From Candidatus Solibacter sp. (lineage in GTDB: Bacteria > Acidobacteriota > Terriglobia > Bryobacterales > Bryobacteraceae), in assembly GCA_017883345.1 (NCBI GenBank), contig JADGNT010000077.1, forward strand, positions 1 to 11,250: a DNA stretch of 11,250 nucleotides. Reading direction: 5' to 3'. A program made the position numbers and the translations under genes. The first letter of the stretch is position 1. The number at the start of each line of letters is the position of its first letter. A model generated the notes under the pieces. It had not been told where the DNA came from. It searched no databases and saw only the letters and a program-made list of their open reading frames with translations. Below, one piece after another: positions 2,098 through 11,092 of the stretch.

Positions 2098-3327
2098 GTG
2101 CGCCTTGAAGTGCCTCGCCGGTTGATGATCTGGGGAGCGATCGCGCTCGGCGCCGTACTGTTGTTCAGCGGTGCGTTGGTGACGCAGAGCCGCCGCGTGC
2201 GCACCCGCTCGCCCATGTTTTTGTCCGCCAGTCCCATCCAGGGCAGCCAGTTGTTCCAGGTCAAGGGTTGTTCGCGTTGTCACTCGGTCAACGGCACGGG
2301 CGGGAAACTCGCGCCCGATCTGGGCCGCAGCCAGGCCGCCGAAGCCAGCGTTTCGCAGTTGGTGGTGGCGATGTGGAACCACGCGCCCCAGATGTGGGAA
2401 CGCATGCGGGTGGAAAAGGTGGAGTATCCCGTGCTGAGTTATGAAGAGGTGGCGCAACTCCTCGCCTACTTGTACATCGCGCGGCATGCTGACGAGCCCG
2501 GCGATGCCGTGCGTGGCAAACAACTCTTCGCTGCCAAAGGATGCATCCGCTGTCACTCGGTTCATGGGCAGGGCGGCAGGATCGGCCCCGACCTCGCTGA
2601 GGTTTCCGGCGTGGACACTCCCATGGCATGGACGCAGGCGATGTGGAATCACAGCGACGCCATGCAGGCCCGCATGCGCGAGGTGAAGCTGGACTGGCCG
2701 CAGTTCGATAATTACGAGTTGCGCGATTTGTTTGCCTATGCGCGCCAGGTTTCCAAACCGCAGATCGCGGCGGGCGATCCGCAGCACGGCTGGAAAGTCT
2801 TTCAGAAACAATCGTGCAATGCGTGTCACTCGATTAAGGATGAAGACGATCAACGCGTCGGGCCGAACCTGGGCCCCTCCCTCAAAGTTCCACCGACATT
2901 TACCCAGTTCGGCGGCCTGATGCTCACCCATGCTCCCCAGATGGGACGCGCCATGAAGGAACATGGCATCGAGCGTCCCCAGTTCGCCGGCGAAGATATG
3001 GCCGATCTCTTCGCATTCCTCTATAGCCTGCGGTACGTGGAACCGAGCGGCTCTCCGCATGTGGGCGAAAGCGTGTTTTCCTGGCGCGGTTGCAACCGCT
3101 GCCACGGCGAGAGCGCGCAGGGCACGGCTCGCGCTCCCGCTTTGCGCGGCCGCGGAACGGGCTACACGTCGGTATCGCTCGCTACGGCTCTGTGGGCGCA
3201 TGGCAGCCGGATGTATCGCGAGAGCCGCGCCCTCGGGATGGGATGGCCGACCTTGTCAGAGGGCGACGTCGGCGATCTGCTCGCATTTCTCAACTCGCCC
3301 GTGCAGACATCGTCCGCCAAGAAGTAA
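2098..3327 (+). CDS. Membrane-anchored tetrahaem cytochrome c, four tandem mono-haem domains
   Basis: A 409-residue periplasmic electron carrier. One hydrophobic segment near the N-terminus (about 10-28) exports it and probably anchors it to the inner membrane. Four class-I-like cytochrome c domains follow, with haem sites CSRCH (58), CIRCH (149), CNACH (240) and CNRCH (332), an almost exact 91-92 residue period. Each domain carries an HxxxM motif 40-42 residues after its first Cys (M99, M189, M282, M372), likely the distal Met ligands. Domains 1 and 2 share KGC-x-RCHSV and GPDL/APDL motifs, so the protein looks built by internal duplication. GTG at 2098 is preferred because GGGAGGG (2084-2090) sits 7 bp upstream; ATG 2125 would cut into the basic N-terminal region. 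It lies between the regulator and the decahaem operon, so it is a candidate periplasmic or quinone-side carrier for it. The partner is inferred. Confidence 0.93.
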   Translation: MRLEVPRRLMIWGAIALGAVLLFSGALVTQSRRVRTRSPMFLSASPIQGSQLFQVKGCSRCHSVNGTGGKLAPDLGRSQAAEASVSQLVVAMWNHAPQMWERMRVEKVEYPVLSYEEVAQLLAYLYIARHADEPGDAVRGKQLFAAKGCIRCHSVHGQGGRIGPDLAEVSGVDTPMAWTQAMWNHSDAMQARMREVKLDWPQFDNYELRDLFAYARQVSKPQIAAGDPQHGWKVFQKQSCNACHSIKDEDDQRVGPNLGPSLKVPPTFTQFGGLMLTHAPQMGRAMKEHGIERPQFAGEDMADLFAFLYSLRYVEPSGSPHVGESVFSWRGCNRCHGESAQGTARAPALRGRGTGYTSVSLATALWAHGSRMYRESRALGMGWPTLSEGDVGDLLAFLNSPVQTSSAKK

Positions 3328-3935: not shown

Positions 3936-4946
3936 ATGGACCAGGCAAGAAGGATGGGTCGAGCAGTGCGCTGGATTGCGTTGGTGTTTGCAGCCTGTCC
4001 GCTGTTGATCGCCGCTGCGGGCGATGCCGGGAAAGGGCCCTCGCCGGGTCCGGCGGTGGCTTACATCGGCAGTGAGCGCTGTGCGGACTGCCACGCGGCG
4101 CAGTTCGAACACCTCAAACAGACCACGATGGGCAAGATCTTCTTGCGCAATCCGCGCACGCCGCTGGAGAAGCAAGGTTGTGAGGCATGCCATGGGCCGG
4201 GAGCTGCGCACGCCGACAGCAACGGCAAGATCGGCCTGATTCGCTTCACCAAGAATTCGCCACAACCGATCGAACTGCGCAACGACCAGTGCCTGCAGTG
4301 CCATGAGAAGGGCAACCGGTTGTTTTGGAGAGGCAGCACGCACGAAAGCCGGGGCGTGGCTTGTACCTCCTGTCACCAAGTCCATACCGAGCAGACATCC
4401 GTGGCAGCAGACCGCTTCCAGGAGCCGCTTTCGGAGAACCGGCAATTCGTGAAACCGACGCAGATGGAAGTCTGTTTCCAGTGCCACCAGATGCGCCGCG
4501 CCCAGCTCCAGCGCTCCTCGCACATGCCCTTCCGCGAGGGCAAGGTGACGTGCAGCAGTTGCCATAACCCGCACGGCACACCGAATCCCAAGCTGCTGAT
4601 CGAGGCCACGGTGAATGACACCTGCTACAAGTGCCACGCCGAGCGCCGCGGGCCGTTCCTGTGGGAGCACCCGCCGGTGATGGAAAACTGCTTGAACTGC
4701 CACGACGCGCACGGCTCCACCAATCCGACTCTGCTCAAGGTGCGAGCGCCTCGTCTGTGCATGCAATGTCACGACGTCAGCGGACACAATTCCGATCCGC
4801 TATCGCTCAGTCCCAATCCGCCACGGATCAGTGCCAACCAGCAGATCAGCACCCGTGGGTTGCGAGTGATCAACCGTTCCTGCACCAACTGCCATGCCCA
4901 GATCCACGGATCCAATCACCCCGCTGGGTCGCGGTACCTGCGCTAG
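3936..4946 (+). CDS. Periplasmic decahaem cytochrome c, MtrA/PioA/DmsE family
   Basis: A 336-residue secreted cytochrome with ten CXXCH haem sites, first Cys at 49, 82, 119, 143, 180, 206, 230, 252, 275 and 316. Ten haems and a length close to Shewanella MtrA (about 333 residues) identify the family that threads through an MtrB-type porin to carry electrons across the outer membrane. The N-terminus is a signal peptide: basic RRMGRAVR, hydrophobic IALVFAACPLLIAAA, and a likely signal peptidase I site after A28. C21 lies inside it without a good lipobox. Start ATG 3936 follows AGGAG and a sigma54 promoter. The MtrB-type gene begins 14 bp downstream, the pairing usual for these porin-cytochrome complexes. 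No MtrC/OmcA-type outer-surface cytochrome gene is visible, so the pair resembles PioAB/MtoAB. The direction of flow (metal reduction or Fe(II) oxidation) cannot be decided from sequence. Confidence 0.95.
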   Translation: MDQARRMGRAVRWIALVFAACPLLIAAAGDAGKGPSPGPAVAYIGSERCADCHAAQFEHLKQTTMGKIFLRNPRTPLEKQGCEACHGPGAAHADSNGKIGLIRFTKNSPQPIELRNDQCLQCHEKGNRLFWRGSTHESRGVACTSCHQVHTEQTSVAADRFQEPLSENRQFVKPTQMEVCFQCHQMRRAQLQRSSHMPFREGKVTCSSCHNPHGTPNPKLLIEATVNDTCYKCHAERRGPFLWEHPPVMENCLNCHDAHGSTNPTLLKVRAPRLCMQCHDVSGHNSDPLSLSPNPPRISANQQISTRGLRVINRSCTNCHAQIHGSNHPAGSRYLR

Positions 4947-4955
4947 AGGAGGAGG
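4947..4955 (+). promoter_or_regulatory. Strong ribosome-binding site of the MtrB-type porin gene
   Basis: AGGAGGAGG ends 5 bp before ATG 4961 and starts immediately after the last base of the decahaem stop codon. It decides the porin start: the frame is open further upstream, but only through the decahaem gene in another frame. Confidence 0.85.
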
Positions 4956-4960
4956 CTTAT

Positions 4961-7549
4961 ATGACGAACCGTGCATTATCTAAGTCTTTCGCCTTGAGCG
5001 TAGCCGTGGCGGGACTGCTGTTGTTCTCGACCGTGGCATTCTGTCAAGAAGAGTCGAGCGAGAATCACGGCTCGGTTGAAGTGGGCGTCCGGCAAAACTG
5101 GGGCACCGTCTACGGAAGGGCGACCGCGAACTCTCTATTTCCATCGTTTCCCGCCACCACGGGGGGCGCGTATCCGCAAGCCTCCGGCGGCCCTTTCACG
5201 GCGCAAGCCCTCGGCTACACACCCGGCTTTGGCAGTTCCCGGTTCTTTGAATATCGCGATATGCCGAACGGCTTCTACGTGAAAAGCTTCCGGGCGGACC
5301 TGGACAACGTGCTGGGAAGGAACCTGTACGTCAAGGTGCAGGGCCGCGACAGCATTGAAAAAGACCAGGCCTACTTGCTGACGGTGGGACAGTACGGCAA
5401 GGCGAAATTCCAGTTCCGCTGGGACGACACGCCGCACGTCTTCACCAACACGGCGCAGAGCCTTTTCATACAGACGGCCCCAGGGTACTTCAACGTCTCG
5501 GCGCCCATTCAGACGACCTTGGCAGCCGGCGCCTCTACCTGTACGTATCAACAAATCGTGGGCGGCACTTGTGGACTGACGAACACCATCAATGGGCTGT
5601 TCTCCACCGTCACGCCGATTTCGCTCGACGTGCGCCGCCGGACCGCCACCGCCAGCTTCGCCTGGACGCCCACGGCGAACTGGGATATCCGCACTTCGTA
5701 CGCACAGGAGAACGAGAGCGGGTCCCGTCCCTTCGGCAACGCTTCGGGCTTTGAATTTCCTGAACCCATCAAGTACCGCACCCAGCAGTTCAGGGTTGGC
5801 GCGGAATACGGCGGGCACCACTGGGGAGTGCAGGTCGGGGTCGTAGGCTCGATTTTCGATAACCGCATCAGCAGCCTGACTTTTGTCAGCCCCTTCAGCA
5901 CGAATGCCACGCTCAACCAGGGTCGCACGGACCTCTATCCGTCCAATACCGCCATCAATGTTCCCATCGCGGGAGCTTTTGACCTGACCAAGTACGTGCG
6001 GGTGATGGGGAGCATTGTGCCCGGGTGGATGAAACAGAACGACGCTTTCCTGCCCTACAGCGTCAACTCCGGGACCACCGGATGCCCCGGCGGCCAGCCG
6101 TGTAATTCGGTCGCCGCATTGCCGGCGAGCAGCCTGAACGGCAGCAAGACCACCCTGGCCATGAACTACACCGTGGCCACCAAGCCCATTCATCGCCTGA
6201 GCTTCGTTGCGCGTTACCGCTCCTACGATTACTACAACGACAGTTCCACGATCGCATTCCCGGGAGTTGTCGTGACCGATGGCGCCACCTTCAGCTCTGG
6301 TGGCGATAATGCGCGCGTCTCCGTGCCCAAAGGATTCGACCGCAAGAATGTCGAATTCGAAGGGTCGTGGCAATTCAGGAAGGACGATCGGGTGAAGGTC
6401 GGTTACGCGCTGGAGAGAATGGATCGCCAACATCGTGATATCAGCCGCACCCAGGAAGGGACCTTCTCCACTTCGATTGACCTGAATCCCAACAAGATGA
6501 CGTTGGTGCGGTTTTCCTACAAGCACTCGGACCGCACCCCAGGCCCTTACAAGAACAACGACGAGAGCTACCTGAACGGCGAGGGCGGGACCGCCCAAAT
6601 GTTCGCTTTCCGGCGCTTCGACGAGGCGCAGCGGACCCGCGATCGCGGGGAAGCGTTGTTGCAGGTCAGTCCTTTGCAGTCGCTCACCTTCTCTGCGGTT
6701 TTCAGTACCGACCAGAATGCCTACGCCAATCATCTCACCGCCACCGAATGCGCGGAAACCAATGCGGAAGCGGTAGCGCAGGCCGCGTTGTCGTCAGCGA
6801 CGCTGGTGGCGCCGTTCAATCCTTCCTGCCTCAGCTACGGATTGCAGAAGGACATCAGTTCCAGCTACAGCTTCGACGTCAACTACAGCCCGATTGCGCA
6901 ACTCGTGTTCTTCGGTGAGTTCTCGCACGAGAGGTTCAATTACCAGCAGCGCGGGCGCGACCGCACTTATGTCACGAGCCTGCAGGCGGCCCCGGCGGTG
7001 CTTACGGGCGTGAAGGGCGCCTATGACGATCCCTCCAATGACTGGTTTAGCTGGAGCAACACCCACATCAACACCTACTCCGCCGGCGTTGATATCTACA
7101 TGAAGAGAAAGAAGGCGGTGCTGACCTCCTTCTACAGCCTGTCAGCCGCCAGCGGCGACATTCTCACCACCCTGCTCAGCGATAGTCCCACCATGAACAT
7201 AAACAACGTCACCACGGCGGCGCTGGTCACGCCGGCGCTGGCGGGCGGAAGCGGTTATTACAACTATCCGAGCACAACCAACCGGCTGCACCAGGTCGTC
7301 ACCTCGGTGAAGTTCGCCATCACTAAGAACATCACGCCGAAAATCGAGTACCGGTTTGAGCGCTATGACCAGCATGACTGGCAGAGCGACATCATGCTGC
7401 CTTACATGTCCGCCTACGACCCGGGGTCTTCCTACAGCACGAGCGCGTCCCGGTTGGGCGGAGGCGCACAAAAGTATCTGTACCTGGGGGCGGACGCTCC
7501 TTCGTACCAATCGCACGTCCTCTCCGGCAGCGTCGAATGGCGTTTTTAG
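4961..7549 (+). CDS. MtrB/PioB-family outer-membrane beta-barrel porin
   Basis: An 862-residue outer-membrane protein expected to form the sheath around the decahaem cytochrome. The N-terminus is a signal peptide (hydrophobic core SVAVAGLLLFSTVAF). The rest has alternating hydrophobic/aromatic strands rich in Tyr, Phe, Asn and Ser, and the chain ends in VEWRF, the C-terminal aromatic of outer-membrane barrels. Placement directly after a decahaem MtrA-type gene with a strong ribosome-binding site is the main support for the family. It is longer than Shewanella MtrB (about 700 residues) and nearer PioB. Apart from C28 in the signal peptide region, six Cys occur as three close pairs (194/204, 375/381, 597/623), likely loop disulfides. 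The N-terminal CXXC reported for some MtrB proteins is absent. Barrel nature is confident; the exact subfamily is less so. Confidence 0.9.
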   Translation: MTNRALSKSFALSVAVAGLLLFSTVAFCQEESSENHGSVEVGVRQNWGTVYGRATANSLFPSFPATTGGAYPQASGGPFTAQALGYTPGFGSSRFFEYRDMPNGFYVKSFRADLDNVLGRNLYVKVQGRDSIEKDQAYLLTVGQYGKAKFQFRWDDTPHVFTNTAQSLFIQTAPGYFNVSAPIQTTLAAGASTCTYQQIVGGTCGLTNTINGLFSTVTPISLDVRRRTATASFAWTPTANWDIRTSYAQENESGSRPFGNASGFEFPEPIKYRTQQFRVGAEYGGHHWGVQVGVVGSIFDNRISSLTFVSPFSTNATLNQGRTDLYPSNTAINVPIAGAFDLTKYVRVMGSIVPGWMKQNDAFLPYSVNSGTTGCPGGQPCNSVAALPASSLNGSKTTLAMNYTVATKPIHRLSFVARYRSYDYYNDSSTIAFPGVVVTDGATFSSGGDNARVSVPKGFDRKNVEFEGSWQFRKDDRVKVGYALERMDRQHRDISRTQEGTFSTSIDLNPNKMTLVRFSYKHSDRTPGPYKNNDESYLNGEGGTAQMFAFRRFDEAQRTRDRGEALLQVSPLQSLTFSAVFSTDQNAYANHLTATECAETNAEAVAQAALSSATLVAPFNPSCLSYGLQKDISSSYSFDVNYSPIAQLVFFGEFSHERFNYQQRGRDRTYVTSLQAAPAVLTGVKGAYDDPSNDWFSWSNTHINTYSAGVDIYMKRKKAVLTSFYSLSAASGDILTTLLSDSPTMNINNVTTAALVTPALAGGSGYYNYPSTTNRLHQVVTSVKFAITKNITPKIEYRFERYDQHDWQSDIMLPYMSAYDPGSSYSTSASRLGGGAQKYLYLGADAPSYQSHVLSGSVEWRF

Positions 7550-7606
7550 GCTTCAGACACAGTGTTCGTGCAAACAGAGAAACAGTACATAACGGGAGAA
7601 GCACAA

Positions 7607-8017
7607 ATGATGAAAAGTAATCATTCCAAGAGACTGGGCATGATGGTCCTGATGGTTCTGCTGTTTGGGACCCTCAGCGCCATGGCGGGCCCGCGCGTAA
7701 TCCAGATCACTGCCGACGAGGATGGCAAGTTCAAGGTCCCAGGGCAGAAAAAGCCAATGATCACGCTGAAGGCGCAGGAAGTGGTGGTGCTGCGCATTAC
7801 CTCGCACAAGGGCAGTGACTGGGAAAAGGACGGCGCCGTGCACAGCTTCACGATCAATGCGCTGAAAGACCAGGGATGGGACCTGCGCCTGAAAGAAGGC
7901 ACGAAGGATTTCACCGTCTCGGCGCCGGCCGAACCCGGGGAATACGTTGTCGAATGTACGGTTCGCTGCGGCAAAACACATGACGATATGAAGATGAAAT
8001 TGATCGTCACGCCGTAG
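7607..8017 (+). CDS. Secreted free-standing CuA cupredoxin (COX2-like copper domain)
   Basis: A 136-residue periplasmic copper protein. The signal peptide is MMKSNHSKR followed by a hydrophobic run ending AMA|GP, with cleavage expected after residue 27. The mature part is a single cupredoxin domain with the full binuclear CuA ligand set of cytochrome oxidase subunit II: H79 (VHSF), then C117-x3-C121-x3-H125-x2-M128. The preceding PGEYVVEC matches the usual PGEY/PGxY strand. There is no other transmembrane helix and no oxidase subunit nearby, so it is a soluble CuA domain rather than COX2; NosZ C-terminal domains share the fold, but the catalytic part is absent. ATG 7607 follows GGGAGA (7594-7599); ATG 7610 is an alternative. 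It lies 57 bp after the porin gene. It is likely an electron shuttle between the NrfD/Fe-S module or tetrahaem cytochrome and the decahaem protein; that role is inference. Confidence 0.88.
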   Translation: MMKSNHSKRLGMMVLMVLLFGTLSAMAGPRVIQITADEDGKFKVPGQKKPMITLKAQEVVVLRITSHKGSDWEKDGAVHSFTINALKDQGWDLRLKEGTKDFTVSAPAEPGEYVVECTVRCGKTHDDMKMKLIVTP

Positions 8018-8026
8018 CGAAACGGA

Positions 8027-8071
8027 GGCCCGCTTTATCGGCCCGCTCCATCGGCCCGGATCTATCGGCCC
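8027..8071. repeat. Short tandem repeat, about 13-bp units (3 plus partial)
   Basis: GGCCCGCTTTATC (8027-8039), GGCCCGCTCCATC (8040-8052) and a 14-bp copy GGCCCGGATCTATC (8053-8066) run head to tail, with a partial copy GGCCC to 8071. They fill most of the gap between the CuA gene and the small gene downstream. No function is apparent; it may be slippage or an mRNA-structure element. Confidence 0.75.
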
Positions 8072-8090
8072 TGACTGGAGGTGTGACGTG

Positions 8091-8201
8091 ATGCGGAGAC
8101 TCGTTTTGATCATGATCGTACTGGCTGCGCTGGCGTTCCTGGTTGAGCAGGCGCACAGCGAAACTGGCGAGCGCACTGCGCAACGGATCGCTTGTACTTG
8201 A
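8091..8201 (+). CDS. Small hydrophobic peptide, 36 residues, unknown
   Basis: A short reading frame beginning MRRLVLIMIVLAALAF, with one basic-flanked hydrophobic segment (about 4-18) and a polar tail (ending RIACT). It could be a small inner-membrane peptide or a secretion signal with a tiny product; C35 is its only Cys. Support comes from a good ribosome-binding site (GGAGGTG at 8077-8083, 7 bp before ATG 8091; GTG 8088 is an alternative) and tight packing. Its stop overlaps the AGGAGG of the next gene, which starts 9 bp later. This implies co-translation with the Fe-S gene. I do not recognise a family. It could be a remnant of a longer gene or a leader frame. Confidence 0.5.
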   Translation: MRRLVLIMIVLAALAFLVEQAHSETGERTAQRIACT

Positions 8202-8210
8202 GGAGGCCCA

Positions 8211-9044
8211 ATGGAGGTAACGCGGCGGGGTTTTGTTCAGTTTCTCGCCCGTGGTGCAGGCGCAGTCGCCGCGGTGGGTGTGGCCTGGAAGGCGAGCGCC
8301 TCAAAGCTGTTTCACGAAGTGTTGCCGGCCCGGTCCATTGCCCCCGGCAATCAGAAGTGGGTAATGGTAATTGACCTCGCCAAGTGCGATGGCTGCCGCG
8401 ATTGCACCCGCGCCTGCACCGCCATGCACCACATTCCTCCCATGCAGGAATGGATCAAGGTTTTTGAGGTCGCCGACAACCCTGCCGCGGGAGCGTATTT
8501 TCTCCCGCGCCCTTGCATGCAATGCGACAACCCGCCTTGCGTCCGCGGCTGTCCTGTCGGCGCGACCTACAAGCGCAGCGACGGCATCGTCATGCAGGAT
8601 GACGACCGCTGCATTGGCTGCCGCAATTGCATCGCACAGTGCCCCTATTCGGCGCGCTCGTTTAATTGGGGCGAACCGCCGCACACTCCCGAGGAACTCG
8701 CCCGTCCGTACTCCGTCGAGTACAACTACCCGCACCGCAAGGGCACGGTCGAAAAGTGCATCTTTTGCCCCGAGCACCTGCGTGCCGGCAAGCTACCCGC
8801 CTGCGCCAGTACCTGCAAGATGGGAGCTATCTATTTCGGCGACGAACTGGAGGACGCCGTCACCAACGGCAAGGGCGAGACGGTCCAGTTCACCAAGATT
8901 GCCAAGCGTGGCGCGGGCTTCCGCCTGATGGAGGAACTCGGCACCGAGCCGCGCGTTTACTATCTGCCGCCGGCAGCCAGGAAGTATCCCGGTCCTGACG
9001 AGCAGAAACAGGCCGTAAGTATGGCCGGCATGGAGCACTCGTAA
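8211..9044 (+). CDS. Tat-exported 4x[4Fe-4S] ferredoxin-like subunit (NrfC/DmsB/HybA family)
   Basis: A 277-residue electron-transfer subunit. The N-terminus TRRGFVQF with a hydrophobic stretch after it is a twin-arginine signal (R5-R6), so the folded protein acts on the periplasmic side. Sixteen Cys form four complete clusters: C59/62/65/69, C102/105/110/114, C134/137/140/144 and C183/186/198/202; no cluster has lost a ligand. This is the pattern of subunits that pass electrons between NrfD-type membrane proteins and periplasmic partners, as in NrfCD, PsrBC and the ActB C-terminal part of alternative complex III. AGGAGG (8201-8206) precedes ATG 8211. The stop overlaps the NrfD start by 1 bp (TAATG), strong evidence of a 1:1 complex. 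No molybdopterin catalytic subunit lies in the window, so the redox partner is probably the CuA protein or a multihaem cytochrome (inference). Confidence 0.95.
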   Translation: MEVTRRGFVQFLARGAGAVAAVGVAWKASASKLFHEVLPARSIAPGNQKWVMVIDLAKCDGCRDCTRACTAMHHIPPMQEWIKVFEVADNPAAGAYFLPRPCMQCDNPPCVRGCPVGATYKRSDGIVMQDDDRCIGCRNCIAQCPYSARSFNWGEPPHTPEELARPYSVEYNYPHRKGTVEKCIFCPEHLRAGKLPACASTCKMGAIYFGDELEDAVTNGKGETVQFTKIAKRGAGFRLMEELGTEPRVYYLPPAARKYPGPDEQKQAVSMAGMEHS

Positions 9045-9073
9045 TGGAACCCAGAGTAATGGAACCCAGAGAA
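9044..9073. repeat. 15-bp tandem duplication at the NrfD gene start
   Basis: Two near-identical 15-bp copies, ATGGAACCCAGAGTA and ATGGAACCCAGAGAA, lie head to tail and encode MEPRV-MEPRE. This gives two in-frame ATG starts (9044 and 9059). The first overlaps the upstream stop and has GGAG (9032-9035) 8 bp before it, so it is preferred. Confidence 0.8.
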
Positions 9074-11092
9074 GAGAACCTGTTGCGCTCGATGACCCAG
9101 ACCAGTTGGCGCTTTTATGCCTGGGTGGGATTCCTGGGCACGATCCTGCTGGTTGGCCTCGTCGCCTTCATCCAGCAACTTCGTCACGGACTCATCGTCA
9201 CCGGCATGCGCGACCAGATTTCCTGGGGAATCTACATCACCGACTTTGTCTTCTTCATCGGCATCAGCCACGCCGGCACCCTGATCTCGGCCATCCTGCG
9301 CGTCACCAACACCGGGTGGCGCACACCAATTACGCGCATGGCGGAAGCGGTCACCGTGTTTGCCCTCTGTATCGGTGCGCCCATCGTCATTATCGACATG
9401 GGCCGGCCTGACCGCATGCTGAATATCTTCCGCTATGGCCGCATCCAGTCGCCGATCATCTGGGACGTGCTCGGGGTCTCGACCTATCTCACCGGCTGCA
9501 TCCTCTATTTCTATATTCCCATGATCCCGGACCTGGCCCTGCTCGCGGACCGGCCGGAAATGTCCGCCTGGCGCCGCCGCTTCTACCGCCGGCTCTCACT
9601 GGGCTGGCGCAACACGGCAGCGCAGAAGAAACTGCTGGAGCGCGCCATCTCGACCATGGCCGTCTTCATCATTCCGCTCGCCGTCTCCGTCCATACCGTA
9701 GTCTCCTGGATCTTTGCCATGACGCTGCGTCCCGGTTGGGACAGCAGCATCTTCGGACCTTACTTTGTCGTGGGCGCCATTTACTCAGGCGCGGCGGCGG
9801 TGATTTTCTCGATGTATGTCCTGCGCCGGGTCTATCACCTGGAGGATTACATCAAGCCCCTGCACTTCCGCAATCTCGGCCTGATGCTGCTCGCTTTTTC
9901 CATGCTCTACCTGTACTTCAACATCAACGAGTACTTCACCGCCGGGTACAAACTGCAGGGCATGGAACGCACGCTCCTCGACCGCCTCTTCGTGGGCGAC
10001 TACGCCGTCATCTTCTGGACGGCGCAAAGTGTCTGCGTGTTCATCCCGCTGCTGATCATGCTCGCCGTGCTGGGACTGAAGCGCTACGAGCACTTCATCA
10101 TCCCGGGGATGGTCTTTGCCTCCGGACTGGTGATCGTCGGCGCCTGGGCCAAGCGCTACATTATTATTGTGCCCACCCTGCGCAGCCCGTTTCTCCCTTC
10201 CGGCCAGCGCCTGCCCTGGGAATGGACGCACTACAGTCCCACCTGGGTGGAGTGGTCGATCACGGCCGCCGCCGTGGCCGGTTTTCTCATGATCTACACC
10301 TTGCTCTCGAAAGTTTTCCCGATCGTCTCCATCTGGGAAACGCGCGAGGGAGAGGTGACCGAGACCGAGGCTGAGGCCGTACCCATTGCGGTCGGAGCGC
10401 CCTCCCGGTGGTGGAAGGGCGGGGCCGTCGCAACGTCAGTTCTGCTCGGATTCCTGCTTCTGAGCTCGCAGTCGGCGCAGGGCGCGACACCGCCCGCCAA
10501 ACACCCCAAGCCGGCTGCAATCTCGGTGGATTGGAAGGTGCTACCGGCCAACACGCCTTCCGTCACTGGCTCGCCGGACGAGCCGCAGCCAGCCGCGCCG
10601 CGCCGCGTGTACTGGTATGCCGGCCGGCTGTTCAACCCGTTCAGCACCACCGAGAACACGCCGCCGGAGGAGAAGACGATTGCGCCCGTTGCCATTGTCG
10701 CCACCCTGCACGATCCCGGCGGAGCCCCCATCGGCTTCAAGCCGCTGGAGTTCAGTCTCGACTCCGGCTTTGGCACGCTCTCCTTCGGCAACCGTCCGAC
10801 CATGGCGGACGGCCGCGCCCAACTCACCGTTCGCGACCGCCGTTATGGTTCGTATCCCGTGAAAGTGAGTTTCAGGGGAGACGACGAGTACGCCGCCACT
10901 TCGTTCCAGGTGCGGGTCAACTTTGGGGAGCGGCCGGCCCCGGCGCTGCCCAATGTGGGTGTCCTCATCACTCCCTACGCCACATCGCCGGTGACCGTTC
11001 CATTCGTGCTCTTCTATGGAGCAATGTGGGTGGTGTTCGCATATGTTTTCGGGTACCTGATCCTGTGGCGCATGCGCAAAGTACGCGATTGA
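9044..11092 (+). CDS. NrfD/ActC-type quinone-reactive membrane protein fused to a periplasmic Ig-like domain
   Basis: A 682-residue integral membrane protein. Residues 1-430 form an NrfD/PsrC/ActC core with about ten membrane segments (near 27-45, 62-86, 103-117, 137-160, 203-226, 238-262, 274-292, 321-344, 349-366, 404-424). Family motifs include SHAGTLISAILR (75-86), IDMGRP (117-122), SVHTVVSW (215-222) and YSPTWVEW (397-404). H76 and D118 are plausible quinone/proton-path residues. An extra ~250 residues follow. They comprise an acidic/basic linker, a hydrophobic segment (461-478) ending QSAQG that looks like a signal peptide, a proline-rich spacer, an Ig-like beta domain (about 545-627, motifs DGRAQLTV and GDDEYAATS), and a final helix (about 651-675) with basic tail RMRKVRD. 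Charge distribution puts the Ig-like part in the periplasm. The protein would oxidise or reduce quinone and exchange electrons with the Fe-S subunit. The fusion is unusual; NrfD proteins are typically 300-470 residues. Confidence 0.93.
   Translation: MEPRVMEPREENLLRSMTQTSWRFYAWVGFLGTILLVGLVAFIQQLRHGLIVTGMRDQISWGIYITDFVFFIGISHAGTLISAILRVTNTGWRTPITRMAEAVTVFALCIGAPIVIIDMGRPDRMLNIFRYGRIQSPIIWDVLGVSTYLTGCILYFYIPMIPDLALLADRPEMSAWRRRFYRRLSLGWRNTAAQKKLLERAISTMAVFIIPLAVSVHTVVSWIFAMTLRPGWDSSIFGPYFVVGAIYSGAAAVIFSMYVLRRVYHLEDYIKPLHFRNLGLMLLAFSMLYLYFNINEYFTAGYKLQGMERTLLDRLFVGDYAVIFWTAQSVCVFIPLLIMLAVLGLKRYEHFIIPGMVFASGLVIVGAWAKRYIIIVPTLRSPFLPSGQRLPWEWTHYSPTWVEWSITAAAVAGFLMIYTLLSKVFPIVSIWETREGEVTETEAEAVPIAVGAPSRWWKGGAVATSVLLGFLLLSSQSAQGATPPAKHPKPAAISVDWKVLPANTPSVTGSPDEPQPAAPRRVYWYAGRLFNPFSTTENTPPEEKTIAPVAIVATLHDPGGAPIGFKPLEFSLDSGFGTLSFGNRPTMADGRAQLTVRDRRYGSYPVKVSFRGDDEYAATSFQVRVNFGERPAPALPNVGVLITPYATSPVTVPFVLFYGAMWVVFAYVFGYLILWRMRKVRD

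Follow-up and report, generated by a model that had tools for sequence, protein, structure and literature searches.

Quinol dehydrogenases that pair an iron-sulfur (FeS) protein with an NrfD-type membrane protein are in print as neighbors or partners of Mtr genes (PMC8805035, PMC13393422, PMC11434368). NetBCD is counted among the functionally characterized ones in PMC8805035, and SirCD is described in PMC11434368 as able to substitute for CymA. We analyzed a locus of Candidatus Solibacter sp., a soil-type acidobacterium of the Terriglobia, in which an MtrA-MtrB pair and an FeS/NrfD pair stand together with a gene for a secreted, unanchored CuA-type cupredoxin. The locus fills the whole of contig JADGNT010000077.1 (C476), 11,250 bases long and referred to here as the window; the host genome measures 5.4 Mb and is 79% complete. 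The + strand carries, in this order, the end of a histidine kinase gene, an NtrC-type regulator, a four-heme cytochrome (cyt4), a stretch of about 600 bp, MtrA, MtrB, the CuA protein, a 36-aa open reading frame (ORF), the FeS protein, and the NrfD-like protein. We found that this gene set is real and recurring and that copper is its unusual element. Together the genes look like a complete electrical route that links the inner membrane with the cell exterior, in which copper would be an unusual middle step.

Like the window, the MtrCAB-PdsA-NetBCD cluster of Aeromonas and Vibrio brings together a porin-cytochrome conduit, a quinol dehydrogenase of the inner membrane, and a c cytochrome of the periplasm, as described in PMC8805035. 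The window differs from it in having no pentaheme NetB, no PdsA, and no MtrC and in having the CuA protein, the four-heme cyt4, and an NrfD with an immunoglobulin (Ig)-like C-terminal domain. SirCD of Shewanella and Cbc4/CbcSTU of Geobacter are likewise modules of FeS and membrane proteins that feed periplasmic and extracellular electron transfer, but as described in PMC11434368, they have no copper protein and are not joined to an mtrAB operon. In the Fe(II)-oxidizing MtoAB and PioAB systems, as in the window, MtrA and MtrB family proteins occur without MtrC and with small periplasmic carriers nearby. Those carriers are given in PMC10654088 and PMC12016527 as the MtoD cytochrome or the high-potential iron-sulfur protein PioC, with CymA or ImoA, whereas the window has CuA, cyt4, and FeS/NrfD. 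Alternative complex III (ActABCDEF) resembles the window in that the NrfD-like protein aligns with ActC and the FeS protein with the C-terminal part of ActB; however, ActA, ActD, ActE, ActF, and the molybdopterin-like part of ActB are missing from the window, and the acceptor is apparently CuA plus cyt4. The hosts of Group 5 acidobacterial MtrCAB are Bryobacterales and other Acidobacteriia; a tetraheme cytochrome follows mtrB in these clusters, and the 2022 survey that describes them reported no inner-membrane quinone oxidoreductase near mtrCAB of Group 5 Acidobacteriia (PMC8805035). Decaheme cytochromes of soil Acidobacteria were put forward in 2013 as belonging to possible iron reducers (PMC3669403), and a part in the iron reduction of MBNT15 and Melioribacter was proposed for FeS/NrfD proteins with multiheme cytochromes (PMC9386147).

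A sequence-only reading of this stretch had known of no described porin-cytochrome operon with this gene set. Since quinol-oxidizing FeS/NrfD partners of Mtr conduits (NetBCD and SirCD) have already been described, the new element is CuA and not NrfC or NrfD. For the CuA element we found no printed precedent: a literature search that did not cover most subscription journals turned up no publication in which a soluble CuA protein belongs to an FeS/NrfD-Mtr cluster. The nearest printed CuA-like domain outside an oxidase that we met is in ANME-2d archaea, whose copper centers related to oxidase subunit II are treated in PMC5244752 in the setting of nitrate-dependent methane oxidation.

That same reading had listed a close-packed set of a decaheme cytochrome, a large beta-barrel, a CuA domain, a 36-aa peptide, an FeS protein, and an NrfD protein, with gaps of 14, 57, 73, 9, and -1 bp. 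We found all six genes where it had placed them, all on the + strand, and the gaps are exact; only the 36-aa ORF fell short, as it is not conserved. It had overlooked cyt4, the NtrC-type regulator, and the end of the histidine kinase. The cytochrome (3936 to 4946) is of the MtrA/DmsE family, with ten CXXCH motifs and a TIGR03508 score of 262 bits (cut-off, 192.2). It matches 6r2q chain A with an E value of 3.2e-63; this chain corresponds to the MtrA subunit in the MtrCAB structure, although it bears another name in the match table. The barrel (4961 to 7549) belongs to the MtrB/PioB family, with 287 bits against PF11854 (cut-off, 23); against the stricter TIGR03509 it scored 206.8 bits, below the cut-off of 240.05. 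A ten-heme MtrA-family cytochrome with an adjoining MtrB/PioB-family barrel is what defines a porin-cytochrome conduit of the MtrAB/PioAB/MtoAB type, and the window has both parts.

Apart from such a case, CuA centers are known chiefly as parts of oxidases and of N2O reductase. The CuA protein of the window (7607 to 8017) has a single N-terminal hydrophobic stretch, interpreted here as a signal peptide, and is otherwise unanchored. It has no Pfam match. We rejected an identity as CoxB, cytochrome c oxidase subunit II, because the protein scored 21.6 bits against TIGR02866 (cut-off, 147.7), has no membrane anchor, and has no COX1 beside it in the window; COX1 matches lie elsewhere in the genome, on C292, C363, and C83. 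In fold comparisons of its AlphaFold2 model (predicted local distance difference test [pLDDT] score, 81), cupredoxins came first, with the CuA domains of ba3, cytochrome oxidase, and N2O reductase almost equal; the best fold match was Cupredoxin_1, and nitrosocyanin also matched. H79, C117, C121, H125, and M128, which correspond to the side-chain ligands of CuA sites, are invariant in the 22-row alignment A2. All five positions are kept in 41 of 43 nonduplicate relatives, the exceptions being L116, where Q replaces M in one of two copies, and L137, where R replaces C; the L041 protein aligns with one extra loop residue. It is these five kept positions, and not the fold, that point to CuA. With two Cys, two His, and one Met in a modeled cupredoxin fold, the protein appears to have the makings of a CuA domain, and its copper site is a predicted one. 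A place for copper in the periplasmic relay had been proposed from the sequence alone.

The FeS protein (8211 to 9044) is NrfC/PsrB/DsrO-like and scored 76 bits against Fer4_11 PF13247 (cut-off, 26.2). Behind a twin-arginine translocation (Tat) motif, its 16 Cys fall into four groups and would suffice for four [4Fe-4S] clusters, and it matches 2vpw chain B with an E value of 9e-33. The NrfD/ActC-like membrane protein (9044 to 11092) scored 124 bits against PF03916 (cut-off, 25.8) and aligns with ActC (6lod) over profile positions 25 to 438 (E value, 1.7e-71). Its C-terminal part consists of an Ig-like domain followed by a final transmembrane segment. The last 240 or so residues are weakly Ig-like (Big_1, 26.2 bits, below the cut-off of 34.9), and this C-terminal part is common to 23 relatives, chosen among 120 matches listed (24-row alignment A1). 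With both families over their cut-offs and the two genes overlapping by 1 bp, the pair has the composition of a quinol module of the NetCD, SirCD, and PsrBC type. NetC and NetD are NrfC- and NrfD-like. The window has no five-heme gene and so does not encode NetBCD. Membership in DsrMKJOP was rejected on scores of 185.2 bits for DsrO (cut-off, 200) and 127 bits for DsrP (cut-off, 350), and membership in alternative complex III was rejected because the window has only the ActC-like and FeS proteins. One NrfD relative, P0122 (983 aa), naturally joins NrfD and a C-terminal diheme cytochrome c in one protein, which recalls the diheme gene that follows NrfD in L025 to L027.

We found that CuA-FeS-NrfD, called here the triad, recurs in genomes whose NrfD is 53 to 70% identical to that of the window. 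The triad is a conserved module, and because of this recurrence the gene set of the window is not a chance arrangement. We scanned with an NrfD profile and took the best 80 of 532 loci, which held at least 593 matched stretches. The first 19 loci of the scan (L025 to L043) are from Acidobacteriota or Terriglobia, and one short acidobacterial contig, L079, was not judged. Setting aside L033, L037, L038, and L039, on whose short contigs the neighboring genes cannot be seen, and adding the window, L105, L112, and L116 gave 19 judged nonredundant triad loci. Nine of these carry a ten-heme MtrA-family cytochrome and a barrel or barrel-sized gene alongside. MtrA and MtrB accompany the triad in four (the window, L032, L034, and L035); another four (L030, L036, L043, and L116) have MtrA with a different large barrel-like protein, A3. 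The A3 protein is remotely similar to MtrB across some 224 N-terminal columns (probability in hhalign, 92), and a scan of three of its loci (L030, L036, and L116) gave no Pfam or NCBIfam match. The ninth, L041 (Solibacteraceae SbA4, 9226 to 18102), holds FeS, NrfD (frame broken), CuA, OmcA/MtrC (TIGR03507 E value, 1.5e-135), MtrA (TIGR03508, 233.8 bits), and a 654-aa ORF in one run; this ORF occupies the place of the barrel, contains unread bases, and has no family match. By its own account, the sequence-only reading would fall if the CuA and NrfD genes never lay next to mtrAB in homologous loci. In some loci they do, and the reading was not refuted: the order MtrA-MtrB-CuA-FeS-NrfD is repeated in L032, L034, and L035, and L041 has FeS-NrfD-CuA-MtrC-MtrA. 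Unlike the Group 5 clusters as surveyed, L041 thus has FeS-NrfD-CuA directly adjoining an MtrC-MtrA set. The triad is a candidate for the missing quinone link of acidobacterial mtrCAB, near which the survey in PMC8805035 reported none.

We propose, with a probability of roughly 55%, that the locus encodes a trans-envelope electron route from quinol to the outside by way of CuA and cyt4. According to this model, electron exchange with quinol at the inner membrane would fall to NrfD and the Tat-exported four-cluster FeS protein. Two carriers, CuA as a soluble protein and the four-heme cyt4 as an anchored one, would ferry electrons through the periplasm, and MtrA inside the MtrB barrel would take them across the outer membrane. 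What the sequences show is which parts are present, what features they have, and which of them recur together. That these carriers pass electrons to each other, and in what order and direction, is predicted from the genes. The cyt4 protein (2098 to 3327) has a hydrophobic N terminus and four mono-heme cytochrome c domains (four PF00034 stretches and four CXXCH motifs) and is likely a periplasmic relay. Its relatives adjoin all three Mtr loci seen in this genome, the other two being on C13 (48% identical) and C73 (33% identical and cut by the contig end). The P0122 fusion and the relatives of the triad that have no MtrAB suggest that the module may also pass electrons to ordinary c cytochromes. 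If the proposal is true, a stand-alone soluble CuA relay to an outer-membrane wire would be new, and it would hint at a higher-potential route than the usual multiheme relays.

Several observations weigh against a quinone-to-exterior route. The fold match of the modeled CuA protein alone cannot tell CuA from other cupredoxins. The window has no second decaheme (OmcA/MtrC) gene and so does not encode MtrCAB; TIGR03507 matches in this genome are on C73, C651, and C805. Ten of the 19 judged triad loci have no adjoining MtrA. In L025, L026, L027, and L105, which hold the closest NrfD relatives of the window, the order histidine kinase-response regulator-cyt4-CuA-FeS-NrfD is kept without MtrAB, and a diheme gene follows NrfD. 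L028, L029, and L112 have a five- or eight-heme cytochrome after NrfD (L028 shows just 1.1 kb there), and L031, L040, and L042 have the triad with no conduit beside it. Because the nearest NrfD relatives keep the module without MtrAB, the two are separable. In an NrfD tree of 24 rows, which left out the short-contig loci L033, L037, L038, and L039, the window groups with these MtrAB-less loci (99/98), and this clustering weakens the conduit reading. About 600 bp with no clear gene separate the end of cyt4 from the start of mtrA. Since mtrA is that far away, cyt4 may be transcribed separately, and one transcript is not implied. A draw of 396 genomes of the phylum, apparently the same for both searches, gave 64 genomes with a window-like MtrB (E value up to 1e-10) and 5 with the CuA family (E value up to 1e-15), and only one of the 64, the genome of the window itself, has both. 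Lastly, the MtrA-type partner is widespread: DmsE/MtrA-family decahemes occur in 200 of 299 genomes of the class. We found such a gene in all 11 triad genomes tested besides that of the window, lone-triad genomes included (10 of 11 over the cut-off; MtrC in 2 of 11). For the 11 class-draw triad genomes (with the window's genome and without G258), presence in all 11 has a hypergeometric probability of 0.011, uncorrected for kinship; because DmsE-family MtrA is so common in the class, this is just mildly above expectation.

Other observations speak for the link. In the draw of 299 class genomes, 28 have the CuA family, and at least four more genomes combine it with MtrB, adjacent in G430 and apart in G398, G412, and G566. 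G430 is from the same family as the window, whose relatives are Acidobacteriota, and it has a triad locus. A conduit occurs elsewhere in the genome, though not beside the triad, in G257 (MtrA with an A3-type protein) and in G398, G412, and G566 (MtrA with MtrB); in G399 the contig with the triad is too short for a judgment, and the genome contains MtrC, MtrA, and an A3-like protein. In the NrfD tree, a second clade (99/98) unites the remaining loci with MtrAB or MtrC-MtrA, and a third holds the A3 loci and also L042, which has no conduit beside the triad. On this tree the MtrAB label must have changed at least twice, so the pairing of MtrAB with the triad was gained, or lost, more than once. 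The MtrA tree, in which long branches meet, was used for one point alone, namely, that triad-linked MtrAs are scattered and do not form one clade. The repeated gain or loss of MtrAB beside the triad speaks, as a recurrence, for a functional link but against an obligate one. The full route proposed from the sequence alone stands in part, with the genes staying together in L032, L034, L035, and L041 and the conduit absent beside more than half of the judged triads.

We consider outward flow, from quinol to Fe(III), humics, or another acceptor outside the cell, somewhat more probable than uptake, because the FeS/NrfD modules that serve Mtr (NetBCD and SirCD) oxidize quinol and because this genome also has an MtrC-MtrA locus with a cyt4-like gene (C73). 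The MtrC-MtrA layout is best known from reducers. These two points also stand against the opposite model, in which MtrAB would draw electrons from Fe(II), minerals, or partner cells and pass them through cyt4 and CuA to a terminal oxidase, some going uphill via FeS/NrfD to the quinone pool. We keep inward flow as an alternative because the cluster lacks MtrC, as MtoAB and PioAB do, and because CuA sites are typically high potential. Consistently with uptake, the genome has a COX1-type oxidase, and the FeS protein resembles QrcC, part of menaquinone reductase (144 bits, below the cut-off of 400). Cupredoxins were also expressed with MtoAB during magnetite oxidation in Sideroxydans, although those are predicted to be extracellular and are encoded in a separate cluster, as reported in PMC12016527. 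On balance we regard uptake as unlikely, although it is the most serious of the alternatives.

Slightly less likely again is that the triad and cyt4 form a quinol:CuA/cytochrome c reductase like alternative complex III, serving a terminal oxidase, with MtrAB a mere neighbor under the same regulator. L025 to L027 and L105, with their regulators, cyt4, and downstream diheme gene, fit this idea, and the best solved NrfD relatives are ActC subunits. In contrast, conduits of the MtrA type appear repeatedly next to the triad in different NrfD clades, and in the window MtrA and MtrB separate cyt4 from CuA and are packed tightly against the latter. Two other NrfD genes of this genome, on C183 and C164, adjoin frames that are, by eye, ActD-like or ActB-like, which would make a second complex III redundant. 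It is highly improbable that the CuA protein is a copper carrier or a metallation or ferroxidase factor and not an electron relay. Its fold is common to cupredoxins of other or unknown roles, as the Cupredoxin_1 and nitrosocyanin matches illustrate, but the five ligands are kept in nearly all relatives, and all 36 CuA genes of the sampled genomes adjoin redox partners, either FeS-NrfD or a monoheme cytochrome.

These 36 genes, from two CuA searches, lie at 35 loci, since G475 has two adjoining copies. FeS and NrfD stand beside CuA at 13 of the 35 loci (the L110 CuA being a contig-edge fragment), and a monoheme cytochrome takes their place at the other 22, 20 of which also have a porin-like barrel of about 370 aa; the barrel is missing in L108, at a contig end, and was not found in L115. 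In L106, L107, L109, L121 to L128, and L130 to L138, we observed this barrel, the monoheme cytochrome, CuA, and usually a DUF5818-like gene. The barrel is called porin-like only because its AlphaFold2 model is of low confidence (mean pLDDT, 56) and the 50 rows listed by Foldseek are outer-membrane barrels, mostly porins. The set of porin-like barrel, monoheme cytochrome, and CuA has the look of a minimal electron conduit in the outer membrane. Soils are rich in Acidobacteriota. Tentatively, and with clearly less confidence than for the route in the window, we suggest that CuA-FeS-NrfD may be an undescribed copper-containing quinol module for varied outer-membrane conduits of Terriglobia (MtrAB, MtrC-MtrA, and MtrA with a second large barrel-like protein), that CuA paralogues may serve the minimal porin-monoheme-CuA conduit, and that soluble CuA could generally act as a hub in the periplasm for extracellular electron transfer by acidobacteria.

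At the front of the window, the C-terminal part of a histidine kinase, cut by the contig end (2 to 550; PF02518, 99 bits), is followed by an NtrC-type sigma-54 response regulator (547 to 1932; PF00158, 209 bits, with PF00072 and PF02954), both on the + strand. The regulator is 72 to 73% identical in L025 to L027. A scan of the window for sigma-54 promoters that the regulator might use gave 3 sites with up to two mismatches against a chance mean of 4.24, and a sigma-70 scan gave none. A looser scan of the window and ten loci gave no site alignable across loci, and we dropped the sigma-54 promoter idea. The 36-aa ORF (8091 to 8201, + strand) has one hydrophobic stretch and no significant tblastn relative in the fetched loci (best E value, 0.89), and a role as a subunit was rejected for this reason. 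The CuA and FeS frames abut or nearly do so in 15 of 17 triad loci, with no space for it, and the ORF is probably outside the system.

Some further arrangements were observed beside NrfD genes. In L031 (12032 to 14024), the genes after NrfD encode a plastocyanin-like protein (22.7 bits against PF00127, for which the cut-off is 21.2) and a protein of 494 aa that has a single CXXCH close to its N terminus and is possibly a cytochrome-barrel fusion. L044 and L054, from Verrucomicrobiota, have FeS-NrfD with a similarly long NrfD, followed by a seven-heme MtrA-like cytochrome; no CuA was found in these two loci.

Other Mtr loci were seen as well. On C13 of the window's genome (L003, 1 to 5947), a gene that is cytochrome b-like by eye, multiheme genes, a divergent cyt4, and MtrA are followed by the start of MtrB at the contig end. 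On C73 (L142, 3 to 6022), MtrC, MtrA, and a 752-aa ORF in the place of the barrel precede the cyt4-like gene; this layout resembles that reported for Group 5 acidobacterial MtrCAB, the 752-aa ORF being placed by position. A long run on C186 of G017 (L155 and L024) holds a CXXCH-bearing 409-aa protein, four- and five-heme genes, a Tat-like 794-aa protein, FeS, NrfD, cyt4, genes that are Rieske-like and cytochrome b-like by eye, 11-, 4-, and 6-heme genes, MtrA, and MtrB, and it is apparently two quinol modules with one conduit. In L156 to L159, MtrA and a barrel are followed by a monoheme gene in L156, L157, and L159, with a nine-heme cytochrome in L156, L157, and L158. A cytochrome b-like gene in L156 and a Rieske-like gene in L157, both labeled by eye, mark a different quinol partner for acidobacterial Mtr.

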